From Pyrinomonadaceae bacterium (GTDB taxonomy: Bacteria > Acidobacteriota > Blastocatellia > Pyrinomonadales > Pyrinomonadaceae): a stretch of 64,000 bases of DNA. Position 1 is the first letter of the stretch, and each line of letters starts with the position of its first letter. The stretch spans positions 1-64,000 of the forward strand of contig JAJQRF010000001.1 in assembly GCA_021228405.1 (NCBI GenBank), read 5' to 3'. Positions 15,837 through 53,865 of this stretch are shown here, piece after piece. Position numbers and translations under genes: made by a program. The notes under the pieces were generated by a model. It was not told where the DNA came from, made no database searches, and saw nothing but the letters and a program-made list of their open reading frames with translations.

Positions 15837-16015
15837 ATCGATTTACGCGAATTTTCTCAAAATTATCTGATTTTCTCCAAATTTATGGATTTTTCGGCAA
15901 ATTTCCGAGATTTTTCACGGATTTATGAGAATTTGCGCAAATTCAGCTGATTTTTCGCAAATTTAGACGATTTTCCTCGAATTTGGCAATTTTTTCGTAA
16001 CTTCATTGATTTAAT
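15837..16015. repeat. Array A: 20-bp degenerate tandem repeat with 10-bp phased T-tracts
   Basis: About nine head-to-tail units of 20 bp. Each unit has two half-units beginning ATTT or TTTT, and the T-tracts fall every 10 bases almost without drift from 15841 to 16011. A typical unit is GATTTTTCGCAAATTTAGAC. Such phasing of A/T tracts with the helix predicts intrinsic bending. It fills the spacer between a GT4 gene and the permease gene. Units differ at many positions, so the array is old or is held by a function that tolerates variation. Confidence 0.8.
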
Positions 16016-19116: not shown

Positions 19117-19803
19117 GTGAGTTCCAAACCGATCCAAAATCCGAAATCCAAAACCCAAAATCCTTTCGAGAAAATGGATAAAATGTATCGTCACCAACGA
19201 TACTTTTACGATCTGACGCGTAAATATTATCTGCTCGGACGCGACAAGCTGATCGCGGAAATGAAGATTTCCGACGGTGAAAACATTCTCGAAATCGGGT
19301 GCGGGACGGCGCGAAACTTGATAATTCTCGCCGAAAAATATCCGGAAGCCAACTTTTTCGGACTCGACGCTTCGGCGGAAATGCTCAAAACCGCGCAATC
19401 TAAGATCGATGCGAAAAACATCAAAAATATCACGCTTAAAACCGCGCTCGCCGATGATTTCAGGTTCGATAAAACCTTTGCTCTGAACGCAAAATTTGAT
19501 GCGATATTTTTCAGTTACGCCGTTTCGATCATTCCGCCATGGAAAGAATCGATTGAAAATGCGCTCGAAAATCTGAAAACGGGCAAGACGCTTTACATTG
19601 TCGATTTCTACGATCAAGCCGATCTGCCGAAATGGTTTCGTAAATTATTGACTTCGTGGCTCAAACAATTTCACGTTAAATATCCCGAAGAGTTACTGCC
19701 GTTTCTGGAAGATTTAGAAAAGAAAGGTATCGGAAAATTAAACATCAAACCGCTCTATAAAAGGTATTCGGTTCTCATCGAACTGCTTAAAGTCGTGAAA
19801 TAA
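19117..19803 (+). CDS. btaB: BtaB-like S-adenosylmethionine-dependent methyltransferase
   Basis: Up to 228 residues from GTG 19117. A start at ATG 19174 (MDKMYRHQRYFYDLTRKYYLLGRD) is also possible and would remove 19 residues encoded by a low-complexity run of CCAAAATCC-type repeats. Motif I is ILEIGCGTARNLIILAEKYP, followed by FFGLDASAEML. BtaB trimethylates the amino group of the homoserine lipid to complete DGTS. The assignment rests on the family resemblance and on its position two genes after btaA. Confidence 0.75.
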   Translation: MSSKPIQNPKSKTQNPFEKMDKMYRHQRYFYDLTRKYYLLGRDKLIAEMKISDGENILEIGCGTARNLIILAEKYPEANFFGLDASAEMLKTAQSKIDAKNIKNITLKTALADDFRFDKTFALNAKFDAIFFSYAVSIIPPWKESIENALENLKTGKTLYIVDFYDQADLPKWFRKLLTSWLKQFHVKYPEELLPFLEDLEKKGIGKLNIKPLYKRYSVLIELLKVVK

Positions 19804-26931: not shown

Positions 26932-27093
26932 AATCTTCCCCTTGTCCAATTAAATGTTAGATTTAGATTGTTTCAAGTTTCGCGCCGAAATTCAATTTGG
27001 GATAACGGATAGTTGATAATTGATGGACGATGACACAACGCAAGACTTTCTACGATCATTTACATTTTACCGAACATTATTCGGAAATTTGAC
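26932..27093. other. Spacer with short seven-base repeats
   Basis: AT-rich. Around 27000-27023 it has a few GGATAAC/GGATAGT/TGATAAT heptamers of the same family as the hairpin at 43356-43417. No gene seen. Confidence 0.4.
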
Positions 27094-27315
27094 TAATTAC
27101 ACGTGTTTTTGTCGATTTTCATCCGTTTTTTAGAATTTCCTTCTGTTAGCGCCGATTTTCACGTGTTTGTGATGATTTTCATCGTGTTTGTGACGATTTT
27201 CATCCGTTTTTAGCGATTTTCATCCGTTCGCGGCGATTTTCACTCTGTCGGGGACGATTTTCATCCGTTTTTGGCGATTTTCACCTGTTGGCGGCGAATT
27301 TCATTTATTTTTGTC
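27094..27315. repeat. Array B: 20/21-bp degenerate tandem repeat, GATTTTC type
   Basis: Ten head-to-tail units. The core GATTTTC (GAATTTC in two) starts at 27114, 27133, 27154, 27174, 27195, 27215, 27235, 27256, 27276 and 27296, so the spacing alternates between 20 and 21 with one 19. The consensus is about GTTNNNGRCGATTTTCAYCY. It lies between the acidic-protein gene and the lysS tail fragment. The 20/21 alternation keeps the units on the same face of the helix. Confidence 0.85.
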
Positions 27316-27482
27316 AAATAAAAAAAGTTCCCCGCCATTTCAATGAGTGGTGGCGCAAAGCGACGGGGTGATTATAAAACGAATGAAATTTCGACTGATT
27401 AAATTTAAATAAATCAACTTCGTCCGCAAAGTGAGAGAAAACTTCCCTTCCTGAAAAAGGAGGAAAGCCTTTTTCCTAATTA
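27316..27482. other. Spacer with a terminator-like hairpin
   Basis: GAAAAAGG (27453-27460) and CCTTTTTC (27468-27475) can pair and are followed by T-rich sequence on the minus strand, just after the end of the lysS tail fragment. Further left, 27335-27375 holds a GC-rich segment with CCCCGCC and GACGGGG arms. No gene seen. Confidence 0.4.
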
Positions 27483-38380: not shown

Positions 38381-38604
38381 TTTTTCAGATTCCGATTGTT
38401 TGAACTTTCCCTCAGCTTTTCTGCTATTTCTTCGACCGTTTCACTTCTGTCCGCCCAGAGTCCCAGAATTTCTTCGTCATCGATCTTGTTTTCTTTTTTC
38501 AATAATTTTTCGAGTTCCGCCAAAACTTCCTTTGCCGAACTTTCGGAAACGATCCGATATTTTCGATTCATTTTTTGCGGAATTTCGATGGTAATTTGTC
38601 CCAT
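38377..38604 (-). CDS. Putative VapB-type antitoxin
   Basis: 75 residues directly upstream of and overlapping the PIN gene. It begins MGQITIEIPQKMNRKYRIVS, a short beta-strand start of the kind seen in ribbon-type antitoxins, followed by a charged helical region (LAELEKLLKKENKID). The assignment is mainly from position and size; the exact family is not clear. Confidence 0.7.
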   Translation of the reverse strand: MGQITIEIPQKMNRKYRIVSESSAKEVLAELEKLLKKENKIDDEEILGLWADRSETVEEIAEKLRESSNNRNLKK

Positions 38605-38677
38605 AATGCCAGAAATTATAACATATTAAACATAACCGAACGGCGAAAATGTGCTCCTCTCCTGGAAGGTTTCACTA

Positions 38678-39025
38678 TTATTCAGACTTTAAATCCTGCA
38701 ATATTCCCGCGATTTGTTCAAATTTTTCGAGCGGGATTTCGTTGAGCAATGTCGGCAAATCCTTTTCGCCCGCGCGCTTCAGACCGTTCAGCGAATGATT
38801 TTCGGAAACGTTCTGCGAAGCGTTCGGCTTCCATTCGAGCAGATCGTTCGGCGTGCAGTTCAACGCCAGACACAGTGCCTCGAGCTGTTCGAGTTTGACG
38901 ATAAAAGGCTCATCAACGATGACCTTCCGGGCGGTCGCTTTGATAAATCCGATACTCCGTAAAAATTCATAATGATTGTCCACACCGCGCAACCGCATTA
39001 CTCTTTTCACATTTAAATAAAGCAT
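38678..39025 (-). CDS. XRE-type helix-turn-helix regulator
   Basis: 115 residues. MLYLNVKRVMRLRGVDNHYEFLRSIGFIKATARKVIVDEPFIVKLEQLEALCLALNCTPNDLLEW matches a Cro/C1-type domain in which the second helix pair is IKLEQLEALCLALNCTPNDLL. The C-terminal half is polar with a last amphipathic helix (LEKFEQIAGILQDL). It lies upstream of the toxin-antitoxin pair on the same strand (73-base gap), so it may regulate it. Confidence 0.75.
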   Translation of the reverse strand: MLYLNVKRVMRLRGVDNHYEFLRSIGFIKATARKVIVDEPFIVKLEQLEALCLALNCTPNDLLEWKPNASQNVSENHSLNGLKRAGEKDLPTLLNEIPLEKFEQIAGILQDLKSE

Positions 39026-39139
39026 TTTATTCTCCTCTCTTCATAAAAATTAGATTGCCGCTAAAACTTTAAATAATATTCATCCGGCTTTACGCTCAAT
39101 TAATATTTTGTAGAACTCACCTCATATATATTTTTTAAG

Positions 39140-39202
39140 CGTTCAGAGTCCCGCCTTCAGGCGGCGATGCTTAGAAAAAAAGTCTTCTAAGGAACTCTAA
39201 AC
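39140..39202. repeat. Inverted-repeat element, GAGTCCCGC family, copy 3
   Basis: GTTCAGAGTCCCGCC (39141-39155) on the left and GGAACTCTAAAC on the right form the ends. The first 26 bases are an exact inverted copy of 26648-26673, 12.5 kb away. Confidence 0.72.
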
Positions 39203-39235
39203 TTGGAACAAAACATTTTCATTGCGTTTCGCAAG

Positions 39236-39424
39236 ACTCATATGGACTGTGGCGTTTCCATCTGGACTGTCGCATTTCCATCTGGACTGTCGTATTTTCA
39301 TCTGGACTATGGCGTTTCCGTCTGGACTGTTTTGTTTTCGTCTGGACTATAGTGTTTTCATATAGACTGTGCCGTTTTCGTATAGCCTGTGCCAAGCTCG
39401 TTTAGACTCTAAGATTTCCATTTT
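39236..39424. repeat. Array C: exact 20-bp period tandem repeat, TCTGGACTGT type
   Basis: Nine units of exactly 20 bases. The GGACTGT element or its variant starts at 39244, 39264, 39284, 39304, 39324, 39344, 39364, 39384 and 39404. A typical unit is CATCTGGACTGTCGCATTTC. The middle units are the most alike and the last two are decayed. It lies between the XRE gene and the carboxypeptidase-regulatory-domain gene, both on the minus strand, ending only about 10 bases from the latter's stop. Confidence 0.88.
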
Positions 39425-39434
39425 CTTCCCGGTT

Positions 39435-40226
39435 CTAATGATTGATGCCGAAAATCTGCTCTTGAAAATAGTTTCGCTCCAAAAACCCGAGATATTTATC
39501 TCGCACCTCGTTGTAATTGTCGGTTTGCTGTTTGAGCACCAATTTAAAGGGCTTCGTCTGCGCATCGAGGATAAAAATCCCGGAATCGGCGATGCCCGTG
39601 ATGACGGGCGGCGCGGTCATAAAAGGTTCGGGGTCTTTTTCAAACATAATCGCGCGGATTTGATATTGGCGGTCGGAAAAAGCGTTTAGCGAAAAGTTTC
39701 CGGCTTTATCGGTCTTTACCACGCCGAACGAAACGCCGAAACCGCCCGTGATGCCGCGCAAACCGATCCACGCTTTGAATGCCGGATTTCCCTTTTCATT
39801 TACCACTCTTCCACTCACCCTTTGAACGCCGAGCGCGGGCGGCGCACGAAAAACGATCGTTTGCGGCGGAGTTTTTTCGTCGATCGTGAACACTTCGGCT
39901 TTTTCGCGTTCGGCTGATTGAGGGTAAAACGTCGTCACAAAAGGTGAAAGTATCGACGGGTTTTCGTCGAAATTTATGCTCAAAGTGTATTTTCCTTGCG
40001 GCAGACGAAACGTAAACAAGCCCGACGCGCTCGTGGTCACATTCATTCGCGGGTCGATGACGATCTTGTCGGATTCGACGGGAACCATTTCGATCTCCGT
40101 GTAAGCGAGCGGCGTTCCGTCGGATTTTAATAATTTCCCGCGAATTTGCGCGGAACTTTGGCTGAAACTTGCCGAAAACAAAAGCAGGAATAATGCGAAA
40201 AAGGCGGTAAAAATCTGATTTTGCAT
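39435..40226 (-). CDS. Secreted protein with two carboxypeptidase-regulatory-like domains
   Basis: 263 residues. A signal peptide (ending SSAQ) precedes a first beta-sandwich (IRGKLLKSDGTPLAYTEIEMVPVES, then SGLFTFRLPQGKYTLSINFDE). A second one begins VSGRVVNEKGNPAFKAWIGLRGI and has DKAGNFSLNAFSDRQYQIRA. Such domains bind or decorate envelope proteins; here no enzyme domain follows. It is divergent from the Oar-like receptor at 40483, which has the same kind of N-terminal domain, so a link is possible. Confidence 0.7.
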   Translation of the reverse strand: MQNQIFTAFFALFLLLFSASFSQSSAQIRGKLLKSDGTPLAYTEIEMVPVESDKIVIDPRMNVTTSASGLFTFRLPQGKYTLSINFDENPSILSPFVTTFYPQSAEREKAEVFTIDEKTPPQTIVFRAPPALGVQRVSGRVVNEKGNPAFKAWIGLRGITGGFGVSFGVVKTDKAGNFSLNAFSDRQYQIRAIMFEKDPEPFMTAPPVITGIADSGIFILDAQTKPFKLVLKQQTDNYNEVRDKYLGFLERNYFQEQIFGINH

Positions 40227-40482
40227 AAAACCTCGGATGAAGATTCGTTTTGCACCAGATTATCACAGAAGCCTTTGAATTGAACAGATTTTTCGTGCGG
40301 ACGGTTGCGCCTTTTAAATATTTAACATTTCGGAATTTGGGGTTTATTATATAAAAGTTTTATAATTCGCGTGTTCCGAATTATTAACCTGAATTTAATA
40401 TCTTTCGCAAAATTACGAAAATTTTGCCGGAATTTCAGGTTTGTATTTACCCTGTTTAAGAATAAATTTTGAGGAGATTTTT
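40227..40482. promoter_or_regulatory. Divergent promoter region upstream of the second Oar-like receptor
   Basis: About 250 AT-rich bases between two divergent envelope genes. GAGGAG (40471-40476) is the ribosome-binding site of the receptor. I see no clear operator. Confidence 0.4.
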
Positions 40483-43350
40483 ATGAATAGAACTCTGCGT
40501 ATCTATTTCGTTTTGCTGTTTACATTTATTTTCAGTATTTCCGTTTTTGCGCAATCGCAAGCGACGACGGGCTTGATTCAAGGCACGGTGACAGACCCGA
40601 ACGGCGCATTTATCGCGGGCGCAAGCATCAACGTCAAAAATACAGGCACAGGATTCGAGCGAACCGTCACGAGCAATTCGGACGGTTTTTTTAGTGCGCC
40701 GCTCCTGCCGCTCGGCAAATACCGCATCACGACTTCCGCCTCGGGCTTTACGAATTCCGTGCTTGAGAACGTCGAGGTGTCGGTCGGTCAGACGATCTCT
40801 CTGAAGATCGATATGAAGGTCGGCGGTTCGGTCGAAACGGTCGATGTTTCCGCCGAACCCGAGGGCGTGGAGATCGCCCGCACCGAGCTTTCGACGCAGA
40901 TCAACGAGCGTTCGGTCGAAAATCTGCCGATCAACCGCCGCGATTTTTCGCGTTTCGCGCTTCTAACGCCGGGCGTTTCGATCGTGCAGGGTCCCGACGG
41001 CGACGAGATCACGATCAACGGGCAGAAAGGCATCCAAAACAACGTTTCGATCGACGGTGCAGACGCGAACAACCCGTTTTTCGGCGAACAGCGCGGCGGT
41101 CAGCGTCCGGCGTTTACGATCTCGCTCGAATCCGTCAAGGAATTTCAGGTCGTGCCCGTCGGCGCGTCGGCTGAATTCGGCAGATCAAGCGGCGGATTCA
41201 TCAACGCCGTCACGAAATCGGGCACGAACGAATTTTCGGGTTCGGCGTTCGTCTTCTTCCGCAATCAATCGCTTTCGAGCCAGAATCCCGACGCGGTTGA
41301 CGCGGGACTTCCCGTCGAAGATTTCCGCAATTATCAATTCGGCGGCAACCTCGGCGGACCGATCAAAAGGGACAAGGCGTTTTTCTTCGTCGCCTACGAA
41401 CGCAACGACGGACGCAGTGAAAAACCGAACTCGATCGACCCCGTTCTCGCGAATATTTTCCGAACCCGTTTCAATTCCGTCGAACAAGGCATCATCGAAC
41501 GCACGAACGTTGCCGACGTTTTGCTCGGCAAAGTGGACATCAACGTGGATAAAAACAATCTGCTGACCCTGCGCCACAATTTCAGCCGCGCCGAACAGGT
41601 CAACGGAACGTTCGACGTGCCGACGTGGGGCATCAGCGCGAACGGACGCGAAACCGACAAATCGAACTCGTTCATCGGTCAATTGGTGACGAACATTTCA
41701 TCGAATCTACTCAACGAATTCCGCTTTCAATGGGCGAAAGAAGAGCGTCCGCGCTTTTACGATGGTCCCGATCTGCCCGACACAACCATCGGCACGTTCG
41801 ACGGTTCGATCTCTTACCGTTTCGGTCGCCCGTTCTTTCTGCCCGTTCCGTCAAACGACACGCGCCTCCAGTTTACGGACAATTTCACGATTCTGCGCGG
41901 CAATCATTCGATCAAACTCGGCATCGACTTTAACCGCGTCAACGTTTCGCAGACATTTATCGGCTTTGCACGCGGTCGCTACATCTTTGCCGACGCGACC
42001 ATCGGCGGCGCGATTCAGGGATTCCAGAATTACATCAACGGTGTGAACGCCAACGCGCTTCAGCTTTATCTGCAATTTGCGCCGATCGGCAACCGCACGG
42101 TCGAAGAAGCGGGAACGCAGTCGTTCAACGTTTACGAACCCGGCATTTACGTGCAGGACAACTGGCAGGTGCGCCCTAATCTGACGCTGAATCTCGGTTT
42201 CCGCTGGGAAGGACAATTCGAGCCCGACCCGATCAACAATCCTTCGGCGACGCGTTACGGGCAATTTTTGAGCGATCCGCGTTTCCCGTCCGACGGTTCG
42301 ATTCCCGATTTCACGGACGGTTATTCGCCGCGTCTCGGTCTTTCGTGGTCGCCGGGCAAGGACGGCAAAACCGCGATTCGGCTGGGCGCGGGTATTTACT
42401 ATGCGCGTATTCCGGGGCTTGTGCTGGCAGGACCGCGCAACACGGACGGCGTGATCGCGGGCAACATTTTCTTTGCCAATTTCCTTTGCACGGGTGCAGG
42501 TCTGGGCGGTTGCCCCGTTTTTCCGGGCATCGTTCCGACGGCGGGTTTTACGCCGTTCAATCCGGGCATCGCGGTCTTTGCGAAGGGATTTAAAAATCCG
42601 CGCACGATTCAATACAGCGCGAGCGTCGAACGCGAGATATTTAAAAACACGTCTCTGCTCGTCGCGTATAATCTCGCCAAATCCGACCGCCTGACGCGCT
42701 TCGTCAACCGCAACGATCCGCGTCTTTACAACGGTGTGGCGATCTTTGAACGCGCCAACGGTTCGGGTGTCGGCGAGATTCGTTCGACGGAAAGCTCGGC
42801 AAAATCGCTTTATCAGGGCTTGACGCTGACGCTCAACCGCCGCTTTGCGAACCGCTTCCAGTTTCAGGCGAATTATCTACTGTCATTCGACAAATCCGAC
42901 GACGACAACGAACGCGACCCGTTCACGTTCCGCTACGCCGACCCGCGCGATCTGAGCGCGGAATACAACTGGTCAGACCGCGACCAACGCCACCGTTTCA
43001 ACGCTTTTGCGACAATCATCGCACCGTATGACATCAATATTTCGCCGATCGTCCAGATTCGTTCGGCACAGCCGACCTCGGTGACGAATCGCGGGACGTT
43101 CCCGAATCTGGTCAAACGCAACACTCTGCGGCTCGAAAACGAATTCTTTACGTTCGACATCCGCACGTCGAAGGCGTTCAAATTCACGGAAAAAGTTTCG
43201 CTCGAAGCGATCTTTGAAGCGTTCAACCTCTTCAACAACCGCAACCAACGAAGCCTTCCGCGTCCGCTCACGTTCAACTTCGACGGCACGGTTTCCGCCG
43301 GCTTCGGCGAACCGCGCCAAGCGCAGTTAGGCTTAAAGTTGAAATTCTAA
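40483..43350 (+). CDS. Oar-like TonB-dependent receptor with carboxypeptidase-regulatory domain
   Basis: 955 residues from the ATG at 40483, supported by GAGGAG six bases upstream; a TTG 14 codons earlier lacks a ribosome-binding site. A signal peptide (ending FAQ) precedes a regulatory-like domain (GLIQGTVTDPNGAFIAGASINVKNTGTGFERTV). The plug follows (INRRDFSRFALLTPGVSI, VSIDGADANNPFFGEQRGG, PVGASAEFGRSSGGFINAVTKSGTNEFSG), then a barrel ending RQAQLGLKLKF. It is of the same type as 20175-23438 but shorter and only distantly alike. Substrate unknown. Confidence 0.9.
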   Translation: MNRTLRIYFVLLFTFIFSISVFAQSQATTGLIQGTVTDPNGAFIAGASINVKNTGTGFERTVTSNSDGFFSAPLLPLGKYRITTSASGFTNSVLENVEVSVGQTISLKIDMKVGGSVETVDVSAEPEGVEIARTELSTQINERSVENLPINRRDFSRFALLTPGVSIVQGPDGDEITINGQKGIQNNVSIDGADANNPFFGEQRGGQRPAFTISLESVKEFQVVPVGASAEFGRSSGGFINAVTKSGTNEFSGSAFVFFRNQSLSSQNPDAVDAGLPVEDFRNYQFGGNLGGPIKRDKAFFFVAYERNDGRSEKPNSIDPVLANIFRTRFNSVEQGIIERTNVADVLLGKVDINVDKNNLLTLRHNFSRAEQVNGTFDVPTWGISANGRETDKSNSFIGQLVTNISSNLLNEFRFQWAKEERPRFYDGPDLPDTTIGTFDGSISYRFGRPFFLPVPSNDTRLQFTDNFTILRGNHSIKLGIDFNRVNVSQTFIGFARGRYIFADATIGGAIQGFQNYINGVNANALQLYLQFAPIGNRTVEEAGTQSFNVYEPGIYVQDNWQVRPNLTLNLGFRWEGQFEPDPINNPSATRYGQFLSDPRFPSDGSIPDFTDGYSPRLGLSWSPGKDGKTAIRLGAGIYYARIPGLVLAGPRNTDGVIAGNIFFANFLCTGAGLGGCPVFPGIVPTAGFTPFNPGIAVFAKGFKNPRTIQYSASVEREIFKNTSLLVAYNLAKSDRLTRFVNRNDPRLYNGVAIFERANGSGVGEIRSTESSAKSLYQGLTLTLNRRFANRFQFQANYLLSFDKSDDDNERDPFTFRYADPRDLSAEYNWSDRDQRHRFNAFATIIAPYDINISPIVQIRSAQPTSVTNRGTFPNLVKRNTLRLENEFFTFDIRTSKAFKFTEKVSLEAIFEAFNLFNNRNQRSLPRPLTFNFDGTVSAGFGEPRQAQLGLKLKF

Positions 43351-43355
43351 TTTAA

Positions 43356-43430
43356 GTGGATAACGGATAGTTGATAGTTGATAACTGTTTTTTCACTATC
43401 AACTATCCGTTATCCACTATCCGTTATCAA
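43356..43430. repeat. Heptamer repeats forming a perfect 23-bp hairpin
   Basis: 43356-43378 and 43395-43417 are exact inverted copies over 23 bases, built of GGATAAC/GGATAGT/TGATAGT units and their complements. The loop is 16 bases. Further units continue to 43430. It begins 6 bases after the receptor stop codon and may also act as a terminator. Confidence 0.82.
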
Positions 43431-43679
43431 AAAACTTCTTTACAATTCAAAAATAATAATTTATATTGCTTTGCATCAATAAATGAAAGCTCCGACCGTT
43501 TAGCCGTGACGGTAAAATCAGCTTCTTGATGCCCGAAACGGCAGACGGAAACGCTTGCGTTCATTCGATACGTTTACACAATCGTCGAATCGTGCGAACG
43601 ATTCTTTACCCGATCCCGAACGCGATGCCAAACACACGTTTCAACTTTTCGGAAACACCGCGCAACTTGCAAGCAGCGC
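43431..43679. other. Spacer before array D, no gene supported
   Basis: An open frame runs from 43526 through the array, but its second half only reads the repeat. I see no ribosome-binding site and no recognisable protein in the first half. Confidence 0.4.
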
Positions 43680-43902
43680 AAAACACCGTGCAAGTGCCTC
43701 GGTGCGGCTTGCAAGCGTCGTGGTGCGCCGTGCAAGTGCCTCGGTGCGCGTTTTTTCGTCGTGGTGCGGCTTGCAAGTGCCTCGGTGCGGACTGCAAGCG
43801 TCGCGGTGCGCCGTTTAGTGACGTGGTGCGGACTGCAAGCGTCGTGGTGCGGGATTTTTTAACGTGGTGCGCCGTGCAAGTGTCGCAGTGCGGATTTTTT
43901 CA
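43680..43902. repeat. Array D: 20/21-bp GC-rich tandem repeat, GGTGCG type
   Basis: Ten units; GGTGCG (AGTGCG in the last) starts at 43701, 43722, 43743, 43763, 43784, 43805, 43825, 43846, 43866 and 43887. Spacings are 21, 21, 20, 21, 21, 20, 21, 20, 21. A typical unit is GCAAGTGCCTCGGTGCGGCTT. Two sub-types (GCAAGTGCCTC and GCAAGCGTCGT) tend to alternate. Some units have the left half replaced by a T-run. It lies between the receptor and a coiled-coil gene on the same strand. Confidence 0.88.
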
Positions 43903-43948
43903 ACCCTAAATTACTTTAAATCAATAGAAAACGGAGGAATTTAATAAT

Positions 43949-44611
43949 ATGCCGAGCAGATTTAACCGCGAAGCGGAAAGAAACATTAGAACAAACGATT
44001 TTTTACAGGAAAACAAGACCGATTTTACCGCGAACGCATTTGTAACAGGCAAGATCGCCGAGCTGAAAACCGAACTCGAAACGATGGGCGATAAGCGCGA
44101 AGAACAGATTTCGAGCGACGGCGGTGCGCGACAGAATTACGATATTGCCGAAGAAGCGAACGATTCTTTGAAGGAATTAATGCAGGATGTTGCCGATCTT
44201 GCCGTCACAATGGGCGACGACATCGAAGGCATCGAGGAGAAATTCCGCTTTACGCGAACAGGCGGAAAACGCGCCCGCCTTGCCCGCGCACGCGCCTTTG
44301 CAACGGATGCTTTGGAACACCGCGCGATGTTTGTCGAACGCGGACTCGAATCAAATTTCATCGACGAATTAAACGCGCGAGCCGACGCGCTCGAACAAGC
44401 CCTGGAAAATGCCGTGTCGAAAACTGCCGCCCGCGTCGGTGCGGTCGAATCGAAAATGCAATCACACAAAAAGCAAAAGAAGATCATCGAACAGCTCGAC
44501 CCGATCATCCGCCGCCATTACCGCGATAATCCGGCAAAGCTCGCCGCGTGGGAATTTGCCAGCAAAATCCAACGCGACGAACAACCGAAAACCAAACCGC
44601 CGACCGCTTAA
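43949..44611 (+). CDS. Coiled-coil protein of unknown function
   Basis: 220 residues, with a good ribosome-binding site (GGAGG) before the ATG. Nearly all helical and charged: FVTGKIAELKTELETMGDKREEQ, a long acidic helix with LKELMQDVADLAVTMGDDIEGIEEKF, then an Arg/Ala-rich stretch and FIDELNARADALEQALENAVSKTAARVGAVESKM. No signal peptide, so it should be cytoplasmic. I do not recognise the family. It lies alone between array D and an inverted-repeat element. Confidence 0.6.
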   Translation: MPSRFNREAERNIRTNDFLQENKTDFTANAFVTGKIAELKTELETMGDKREEQISSDGGARQNYDIAEEANDSLKELMQDVADLAVTMGDDIEGIEEKFRFTRTGGKRARLARARAFATDALEHRAMFVERGLESNFIDELNARADALEQALENAVSKTAARVGAVESKMQSHKKQKKIIEQLDPIIRRHYRDNPAKLAAWEFASKIQRDEQPKTKPPTA

Positions 44612-44627
44612 AGATCGTCGGAATGGT

Positions 44628-44698
44628 GAACGCGGAGCGGGCAGATCGACACGGACAAATCAATTAACAATTCGTTTAAATTTGCCCGATTCGCGTGG
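44628..44698. repeat. Inverted-repeat element, GAACGCGGATT family, copy 2
   Basis: The left end GAACGCGGAGCGGGCAGATC and the right end AAATTTGCCCGATTCGCGTGG form an imperfect hairpin. The outer and inner motifs match the copies at 25991 and 51998. Confidence 0.65.
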
Positions 44699-44718
44699 AC
44701 AAAATTATCGACAAAGGT

Positions 44719-44784
44719 GTCAGCAGCCCGCGCGTAAGCAAAGGCTGAAAAATGTTAACCCTTGCTTACGCGCGGGCTACTGAC
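44719..44784. repeat. 26-bp inverted repeat with short loop
   Basis: 44719-44744 and 44759-44784 match as inverted copies at 24 of 26 positions (GTCAG.AGCCCGCGCG...); the loop is 14 bases. It is directly upstream of the TPR gene, so if transcribed it would form a very stable structure in the leader. Confidence 0.82.
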
Positions 44785-44836
44785 ATATCGCAGTTTTTTG
44801 TTAATAATTAATCTGTCCATCTGCTTACAGACAATT

Positions 44837-46708
44837 ATGACCAACGCAATCAATTTAGACGGCGACGATAATATCGTCGTTCAAGGTTCCGAAAACGTAA
44901 ATATTACCGTCAACAAGATTCTCTCGAAATCGCACGACTACAATACAATGCTCGGCGAATTGCGCGAACAGCAGGAAATATTCGACGGCATCTCGGAAGA
45001 AAATTTGAGTCTGCGACTGAAAATCAGCACAAAGATAAATCAGTTAAACGACAGCATCGAACAATTCAAACGCGAGATCATCCAATTAGCCGAAACCTTC
45101 GACAAGCTCGAAGTAAACAGCGAACGACTTCAGCAAGCCCGCGAATTCTTTGAAAAAGGCGAGATCGGCGAAGCCCGCGCCCTGCTCAACGACGACAACG
45201 AAAGACTCGCCGACGAAGAAACCCAACTCTGGCGCAAACGCGACTATTACGAAACCGAGATCGAACCCAAACTAATCGCCAAAGCCGAAGAACGCTATAT
45301 CCAAGCCTTACTCAGCCGAACCGATTACGCCAACCCGAACTGGTTCGCCGACACCCGCAACTATTTCAACCTTTCGATCAAAAGCTACCCGACCAAAGAT
45401 AATATTTTTCAATTTGCATACTTTCTCAAAGACCATAATCAATTTGATGAAGCCGAAAAATATTATTCAAAATATCTGAATGATTTTTCAAACCAAATCT
45501 CGGAAAACGAATACGCAGATGCCTTGAACAATCTGGCTAATTTGCATCGAAATCAAACCCGTTATGACGAAGCCTTGACGGAATTTGAAGAAGCGTTGGC
45601 AATCAGACGCAAGTTGGCGGAAACGAATCCGAACACCTTTTTGCCTGATGTGGCGATGACCTTGAACAATCTGGCTATTTTGCATCAAGCTCAAAACCGC
45701 TATGACGAAGCGTTGAGTGAATATGAAGAAGCCTTGACAATCTATCGCAAGTTAGCGGAAACCAATCCGCATACTTATTTACCTAATGTTGCCACGACCT
45801 TGAACAATCTGGCTGTTTTGCATCAAGCTCAAAACCGCTATGACGAAGCGTTGACGGAATTTGAAGAAGCGTTGGCAATCAGACGCAAGTTGGCGGAAAC
45901 GAATCCGAACACCTTTTTGCCTGATGTGGCGACGACCTTGAACAATCTGGCTATTTTGCATCAAGCTCAAAACCGCTATGACGAAGCGTTGCGTGAATAT
46001 GAAGAAGCCTTGGCAATCTATCGCAAGTTGGCGGAAACCAATCCGCAGACCTTTTTGCCTTTTGTTGCCACGACCTTGAACAATCTGGCTATTTTGCATG
46101 CCGATCAAAACCGTTATGACGAAGCCTTGAGCGAATATGAAGAAGCCTTGGCAATCTATCGCAAGTTGGCGGAAACCAATCCGCATACTTATTTGCCTTT
46201 TGTGGCGATGACCTTGAACAATCTGGCTGTTTTGCATGCCGATCAAAACCGCTATGACGAAGCCTTGAGCGAATATGAAGAAGCCTTGGCAATCTATCGC
46301 AAGTTGGCGGAAACCAATCCGCATACTTATTTGCCCGATGTGGCGATGACCTTGAACAATCTGGCTCTTTTGCATCAAGCTCAAAACCGCTATGACGAAG
46401 CCTTATGCGAATATGGAGAAGCTTTAGAGATTAGAGAATCATTGGCGGAAACCAATCCAATGGTTTATAAAGTTAAAGTTGCTCAAACCAATTATAATCT
46501 GGCAATACTTTATCAAGACGATTTGCCTGATCGTGATAAATCTATTTCGTATGTTTTAACGACTATTGCGATTCTTTTAGAAATCTCGGATGTAGTTATT
46601 TATACAAGGAAATATTTGGAAGCCTCTATTAACATTCTGAAAAAATGGGGTTTGAGCGATGAAGAAATTGACCGAATGATCGCGGAAAAGATGAAAGAAA
46701 GTGAGTAA
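44837..46708 (+). CDS. Tetratricopeptide protein with seven near-identical 46-residue repeats
   Basis: 623 residues from the ATG at 44837. The start INLDGDDNIVVQGSENVNITVNKIL is a short beta element of the kind (DGDNIVIQGV...ITVN) often seen at the N-terminus of multi-domain bacterial conflict or signalling proteins; this is an inference from resemblance. A charged helical region follows (about 45-160). Then come kinesin-light-chain-type TPRs of 46 residues (NNLAILHQAQNRYDEAL.EYEEALAIYRKLAETNP) whose DNA starts at 45524, 45662, 45800, 45938, 46076, 46214 and 46352, exactly 138 bp apart. The copies differ little, so they were multiplied or homogenised recently. No signal peptide. Partner unknown. 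Confidence 0.8.
   Translation: MTNAINLDGDDNIVVQGSENVNITVNKILSKSHDYNTMLGELREQQEIFDGISEENLSLRLKISTKINQLNDSIEQFKREIIQLAETFDKLEVNSERLQQAREFFEKGEIGEARALLNDDNERLADEETQLWRKRDYYETEIEPKLIAKAEERYIQALLSRTDYANPNWFADTRNYFNLSIKSYPTKDNIFQFAYFLKDHNQFDEAEKYYSKYLNDFSNQISENEYADALNNLANLHRNQTRYDEALTEFEEALAIRRKLAETNPNTFLPDVAMTLNNLAILHQAQNRYDEALSEYEEALTIYRKLAETNPHTYLPNVATTLNNLAVLHQAQNRYDEALTEFEEALAIRRKLAETNPNTFLPDVATTLNNLAILHQAQNRYDEALREYEEALAIYRKLAETNPQTFLPFVATTLNNLAILHADQNRYDEALSEYEEALAIYRKLAETNPHTYLPFVAMTLNNLAVLHADQNRYDEALSEYEEALAIYRKLAETNPHTYLPDVAMTLNNLALLHQAQNRYDEALCEYGEALEIRESLAETNPMVYKVKVAQTNYNLAILYQDDLPDRDKSISYVLTTIAILLEISDVVIYTRKYLEASINILKKWGLSDEEIDRMIAEKMKESE
45524..46489 (+). repeat. 138-bp tandem repeats within the TPR gene
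   Basis: Seven copies with an exact 138-bp period. The stretch TTGAACAATCTGGCT opens each copy without change. Variation is limited mostly to a few codons (HQAQ/HADQ/HRNQ, AIRRK/AIYRK, NTFLPDV/HTYLPFV). Confidence 0.9.
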
Positions 46709-53651: not shown

Positions 53652-53700
53652 CGTTAAAATTGATCGACAGTCATTCGTAATAATTCGAGTCAGACGTTGG

Positions 53701-53865
53701 GAATTTGTCGAATTCCGCGGGAATTTGCTAAATTCTCGCGGAATTTGACGATTTCACGCGGAATTTGACGATTTCCCGCGGAATCTGGTAAATTCCCGCG
53801 GAATTCGGCAATTTCCCGCTGTTTTCGGCAAATTCCCGCAGAATTTGACGATTTTTACGGAATCG
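53701..53865. repeat. Array E: exact 20-bp period tandem repeat, GAATTTGACG type
   Basis: Eight full units begin at 53701, 53721, 53741, 53761, 53781, 53801, 53821 and 53841 without any drift; a ninth (GAATCG) is cut. A typical unit is GAATTTGACGATTTCCCGCG. It lies between convergent genes and runs into the last codons of the C25 peptidase gene, whose stop codon (53855-53857) is inside the final unit. Confidence 0.88.

Follow-up and report, generated by a model that had tools for sequence, protein, structure and literature searches.

Plasmid iterons are direct repeats about two helix turns apart, which are private to a rep gene and lie upstream of it. In the ParR/parC centromere, a small binding protein is encoded next to a repeat array, and the system includes a motor ATPase or GTPase. 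Type III toxin-antitoxin systems of the ToxIN kind have tandem repeats just upstream of the gene of a protein of about 200 aa. REP/RAYT systems consist of an array at a gene and gene-less intergenic copies, with a palindromic unit and a Y1 transposase as partner. The locus described here, array D, resembles each of them in some respect. Specifically, its direct repeats are 20 or 21 bp apart and upstream of a gene as in iteron-rep systems, it stands beside the gene of a small protein as parC does, the gene just downstream encodes an approximately 200-aa protein as in type III toxin-antitoxin systems, and an array at a gene occurs together with gene-less intergenic copies as in REP/RAYT.

We analyzed array D within a window of 64,000 nucleotides, that is, the whole stretch of DNA under study, and compared it with arrays in the same genome and in related genomes. 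A real, conserved pairing of such arrays with genes almost certainly exists. The reading that we prefer, with a probability of roughly one half, is that the arrays are helically phased DNA sites which would be bound by the product of the neighboring gene.

Structure of array D

Array D occupies 43662–43900 on the plus strand (43662–43896 in the profile parse, consensus CGTGCAAGTGTCGCGGTGCGG) and is composed of about 11 tandem units of 20–21 bp with the core GGTGCG. The core starts at 43701, 43722, 43743, 43763, 43784, 43805, 43825, 43846, and 43866, and a tenth core, AGTGCG, starts at 43887; successive cores are 21, 21, 20, 21, 21, 20, 21, 20, and 21 bp apart. The spaced pair GGTGCG-N14/15-GGTGCG is present eight times in the 64-kb window; 100 shuffles average 0.01 and never reach eight. 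The array is confirmed where the original prediction had placed it. It is also GC-rich as predicted (GC 0.62), and it belongs to the same class as the window's other arrays, which have a 20-bp period.

The profile parse distinguishes the unit subtypes GCAAGTGCCTC (n = 3), GCAAGCGTCGT (n = 2), GCAAGCGTCGC (n = 1), and GCAAGTGTCGC (n = 1), and three further units have T-rich letters instead of GCAAG. Two alternating subtypes had been proposed; both unit types exist and self-similarity is highest at lag 41, equal to two units, but the alternation is not strict. The three complete T-type units, located at 43749–43768, 43812–43831, and 43853–43872 (all on the plus strand), are 20 bp long and the remaining units 21 bp, so that the replacement of a left half by a T-run of the same length, as it had been described, is off by one base. 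The idea of a lost half is not supported either. The T-run unit at 43749–43768 recurs in a copy of the array elsewhere in the genome (C18) and in an array from another genus (G023), and hence is an old unit type that has been kept; as T-run units stand at corresponding places in array D and the C18 copy, they predate the duplication. Selection on spacing had been read from these replacements; a constraint on spacing is supported, by evidence other than the replacements, namely the dominance of lags 20 and 21 in the sampled genome and a 10.5-bp component in AT content and conservation within units that is commoner than by chance.

The unit of array D is not palindromic (p 0.98 for a local dyad, 0.94 for a full dyad). 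The palindrome was also rejected as a common feature of the arrays, as only 7 of 21 arrays, array D not included, have a local dyad with p < 0.05. Upstream of the array, a promoter-like site, TTTACA-17-TATATT, is found at 43439–43467 (plus strand) by consensus match only, and the array D region contains two such sites against 0.7 in shuffles.

The gene downstream of array D

The partner gene (43949–44611, plus strand) starts about 50 bp past array D and encodes a 220-aa protein. The AlphaFold model of this protein is all-helical with a mean pLDDT of 86.7 and a pTM of 0.56. A Foldseek search against the PDB gave a best E of 0.12, and VIA-align a best Z of 10.1, which is under the tool's telling level for helical bundles. 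Pfam has no family above cut-off in the D protein and none up to E 1 in its relatives, and no DNA-binding domain was recognized. The family is remotely similar to NCBIfam NF052641, the 'PQLLE family protein': 5 of 11 members match, with a best E of 4.1e-8. The D protein itself reaches 16.3 bits and the best own-genome protein 32.7 bits against a cut-off of 80, which places them outside NF052641. The D protein has no match in 72,556 plasmid records and none in phage records; phage families gave nothing beyond weak hits (best E 0.0014, 1 of 11 D-family members). In the defense library, the D protein has no hit and one of 11 members a candidate hit, PDC-M53A (E 2.9e-4). The original prediction suggested a test for a protein that binds GGTGCG. 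We regard a unit-binding protein as a good guess, for which the product of this neighboring gene would be the natural candidate.

The genes beside the partner gene encode a TonB-type barrel and a TPR protein, and no neighbor is conserved among D-family genes. The TPR gene (44762–46708, plus strand) contains six to seven near-identical internal repeats of 138 bp (45518–46422, 88% matches), which suggests a recent expansion.

Array-gene pairing in two protein families

The D family has 13 members in this genome at E 1e-4, and 12 of them have an array upstream, each spelled differently. A search with the single protein finds ten members, of which nine have an array directly upstream and one (L122) has none; three more distant members, at C6, C13, and C18, all have one. 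As background, an array lies within 700 bp upstream of 20 of 351 genes, and the binomial probability for 12 of 13 is 1.4e-14.

Homologs occur in 45 of 162 genomes of the class. A 20/21-bp array is found upstream of 20 of 28 homologs in other genomes, the 28 being the 29 loci kept from outside this genome minus L130, which has 35 bp of upstream sequence where at least 150 bp were required. The eight without an array are L129, L141 (178 bp upstream, counted as a miss), L143, L145, L146, L148, L149, and L151, several of which belong to other families of the class. Arrays were called at a fixed threshold, an identity of 0.53 over 80 bp at lag 20 or 21, by which weak arrays are missed, so the misses may include decayed arrays. 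Downstream of the genes, among loci with sequence there, only L136 exceeds the threshold at 21 bp, alongside a 28-bp signal such as 7-bp repeats give. Blind 1.2-kb windows from relatives gave a signal in 19 of 662 cases, 11 of the 19 being of heptamer or coding type. Eight PQLLE proteins score above cut-off in a phylum sample of 297 genomes, and all eight have a 21-bp array upstream; among the weaker matches examined, L162 is the C6 member of this genome, and L165 and L163 have no clear array. Inverted units are seen within the PQLLE arrays L160 and L164.

The pairing also outlives its surroundings. In G023, from a different genus of the same bacterial family, the D-gene ortholog (57.6% identity over 217 aa) also has a D-type array upstream, which matches 54 bp of a 266-bp array D query at 89%, the T-run unit included. 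Array and gene are kept between the two loci, while the DNA farther out on both sides shows no likeness beyond shuffle level. The family search showed no other genome of the same genus among the matches listed. Array likeness and protein likeness are not significantly related within the D family (Mantel rho 0.09, p 0.22).

The second partner family is represented in the window by a 115-aa protein (38678–39025, minus strand) of the Cro/C1 type. It belongs to HTH_26 (PF13443), with 39.5 bits against a gathering cut-off of 22 (38681–39025), and a 20-bp array lies upstream of its gene at 39214–39423 (minus strand, profile parse). Each of the eight HTH_26 paralogs in this genome is preceded by a private array; a ninth match is weak, contains stops, has no array, and is taken as spurious. 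An array is also present at 12 of 12 homologs elsewhere in the class (11 with period 20/21, one with period 41). The array L115/L188 stands between genes of the two families, one D-type and one HTH, and was counted for both. In a PDB sequence search, the HTH family matches the XRE-family proteins 8q86 and 8qe9 (E 0.002–0.003), entries that are linked to a publication about the SaPI2 repressor Stl2 (PMC11846896).

The HTH proteins vary most in the turn and recognition-helix region, where pairwise identity is 0.24 versus 0.39–0.58 elsewhere. In a comparison that covered 19 of the 20 HTH loci (L207 was left out), array units and proteins diverge together, with Mantel rho of 0.25 for the rest of the protein and 0.24 for the recognition region, and the recognition region follows the array no more than the rest does. 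Between the orthologs L203 and L204, the array unit is kept and the flanks are at shuffle level.

One alternative is that the arrays are neutral minisatellites, which mutation produces in intergenic DNA with a step of about two helix turns, and that their link to genes is incidental. Arrays do occur beside housekeeping genes too, and their units are homogenized within arrays and frayed at the ends, as such an origin would have it. We nevertheless consider it improbable, for two gene families are linked to arrays far more often than the background would give, and in both D/G023 and L203/L204 the array unit outlasts all flanking DNA.

Arrays across the genome and their gene-less copies

We sampled 464 kb of the genome, in which Tandem Repeats Finder gave 73 repeat clusters. 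Twenty-one of these are at least 85 bp long and have 20- or 21-bp periods (or double), mostly with 8–13 units and each with its individual spelling. The sample is partly biased, as 14 of the 20 stretches overlap strong or weak array D matches; the six stretches free of such matches (120 kb) contain 4 of the 21 arrays. Scanning lags of 9–66 over the 464 kb, we found lag 20 at six places, lag 21 at 14, and lags 19 and 22 at none, and the dominant lags are 20, 21, and their multiples. Although coding sequence makes up 86% of the sample, each of the 21 arrays falls outside the called genes; the gene calls, both here and for the 351-gene background, come from a simple hexamer model.

The majority of the sampled arrays have no partner gene adjacent. 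In the window, profile parse and gene calls place three 20-bp arrays with neither partner family beside them, at 15841–16012, 27088–27319, and 53700–53863; the end of a peptidase family C25 gene (53855–56512, minus strand) overlaps or abuts the last one. Two arrays, L018:18894–19075 and L030:15949–16174, are upstream of other genes for proteins of about 200 aa that have no Pfam family above cut-off, and these small genes are possible further partner families. Units in inverted orientation with the register kept are seen at L030:15978–16174, L027:890–1100, L028:6876–7037, and L025:12625–12797. Repeats of other kinds are present as well: short tandem arrays of 7-bp units lie at 19132, 25250, 29763, 30665, 36092, and 51337 of the window, a 7-bp period accounts for 22 of the 73 clusters, and L029:9546–10415 is a long array with 13 copies of a 66-bp unit.

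Some arrays have relatives elsewhere in the genome. Array D is 89% identical over 146 bp to C18:363025–363170, where the likeness stops at the array end and the two differ by one whole 21-bp unit. Shorter relatives are at C1:69717 and C18:203174, and a pattern scan for the T-run unit across genome contigs, including those of other genomes, hit eight places, among them the G023 contig. The array L110 is a copy of the L123 array (BLAST E 9e-48). The HTH array of the window has an 84% copy at C5:14854–14950, which lies between convergent open frames and has no HTH gene. Array-to-array BLAST still produced 9 hits with reversed decoys, the lowest at E 6e-14, versus 30 real ones including self-matches; such likeness is therefore unsafe for AT-rich arrays, and copies are named only for array D, L123, and the HTH array of the window.

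Unconserved neighbors of the D-family genes, together with copies amid unrelated flanks, would also suit a one-gene cassette whose mobility end is the array, gene-less arrays being left-over or separately moved ends. This seems quite unlikely to us: no recombinase is tied to the arrays, neither ends nor target duplications were identified, and a sequence-specific machine misfits so many unlike array sequences.

Helical phase, RNA folding, and coding signals

The unit period equals two turns of B-DNA, which favors DNA sites. After folding on each array's own period, a significant 10.5-bp component of AT content appeared in 12 of the 47 arrays linked to genes and in 5 of the 16 others, against 8 of 300 random stretches; for conservation, the 10.5-bp component was found in 7 of 47 and 5 of 16, against 20 of 300. 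Period and component together are consistent with sites that would lie on one face of B-DNA.

The array could instead act as RNA. It would be part of a long 5' leader, and the repeat RNA would bind or neutralize the downstream protein, either like a type III toxin-antitoxin system or as a self-regulating leader. In line with this, the array precedes a gene whose product has about 200 aa, and a promoter-like site lies before array D. Compared with column permutations, sense strands moreover fold slightly better (mean z −0.80), and 14 of 47 score below −1.64; for antisense strands the values are −0.36 and 6 of 47. Array D is at z −2.74, and some words are strand-biased, TGAAA being found in 13 arrays in sense and 4 in antisense. 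Against dinucleotide shuffles, however, array D folds no better (z +0.70). Terminator-like sites are absent from 43340–44000, including the stretch between array D and the gene, and Rfam has no match in 38500–45000. HTH proteins would be an odd partner for such an RNA, and the period and the 10.5-bp component fit B-DNA. We thus consider an RNA role unlikely.

A repeat of seven codons, living or decayed, would also have a period of 21 bp, and a decayed coding repeat was what the original prediction had named as its own refutation. Open frames do run through 21-bp arrays more often than expected from column permutation (29 vs. 13.7). The excess is however seen on both strands, in the core 168 nt with 38 vs. 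28.8 in sense and 37 vs. 31.8 in antisense, and all 21 arrays are outside called genes. Moreover, 20-bp arrays and mixed 20/21-bp arrays such as array D shift the frame, and a codon-position signal is absent (3 of 40 arrays with p < 0.05). Coding origin is thus extremely unlikely.

A proposed two-part element

Under the preferred reading of phased protein-binding sites, array D would be the DNA half of a two-part element, of which the partner-protein gene directly downstream would be the other half. The partner protein would bind the array, probably cooperatively, at sites lined up along one helix face, and from there may control its own gene; array copies elsewhere could serve it as further docking sites. 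The array, its pairing with both gene families, the fixed period, and the scattered copies are observed; binding, self-control, and any role of the scattered copies are inferred. DNA binding by the HTH family is suggested by its recognized domain, and that by the D protein by the layout which the two families share. Several observations weigh against DNA sites: the D protein has no recognized DNA-binding domain and its fold gives no function, L122 and 8 of the 28 homologs lack an array, most sampled arrays stand without a partner gene, and HTH array likeness tracks the recognition region no better than it tracks the remainder of the protein.

Tentatively, and with somewhat less confidence, we extend this proposal to a new class of two-part elements. 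Each would combine a small gene, from at least two unrelated families, with a private upstream array of phased 20–21-bp units, in which the spelling is private and the period common; gene-less copies seeded between other genes would give each protein its own docking places on the chromosome. Literature searches list no description of such arrays and none for 'PQLLE', and within their reach we regard the array-gene system as new.

Through the pairing, a protein family of unknown function and a family of small HTH proteins each gain a DNA partner recognizable in the sequence, so that their function becomes directly testable. Should the arrays prove to be docking sites, a single genome would contain over 20 protein-DNA pairs, parallel and private to one another, in which nature itself has tried out how proteins and repeated sites change jointly. 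The combination of fixed spacing and free sequence also bears on the origin of minisatellites with a single period.

Comparison with known systems

CRISPR repeats with unique spacers are absent, as the units of array D directly abut and vary throughout. Y1 (RAYT) transposases were considered as makers of the arrays, but this genome has 9 matches versus 13 and 15 in the relatives G013 and G009, samples of which showed no such arrays; six of eight Y1 loci fetched have at least one array within the surrounding 12 kb, about the density elsewhere. REP/RAYT differs further in that the units described here are not regularly palindromic and the D protein has no Y1 match.

Type III toxin-antitoxin systems differ from array D and its gene in that the D protein is modeled as all-helical, no terminator-like site is present, and the repeats are many more and shorter; in addition, the HTH family shares the array-gene layout. 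In ParR/parC, a motor gene belongs to the system, and beside D there is none; the adjacent genes encode a TonB-type barrel and a TPR protein, and the D-family genes have no conserved neighbor. Compared with iteron-rep systems, no replication initiator family was found for the D protein or its relatives, and array D is not on a plasmid but on a chromosome-size contig of 1,194,427 bases with housekeeping genes; the D protein has no match in plasmid records. Different from a single rep gene with its iterons, at least 21 array-gene pairs and gene-less copies exist in one genome. By this analysis, the layout appears to resemble that of iteron-rep and parC-ParR pairs, with the defining features of both absent. 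The likeness to NF052641 is remote: the D protein is far below the cut-off of this family, and a 21-bp array lies upstream of every PQLLE member above it.
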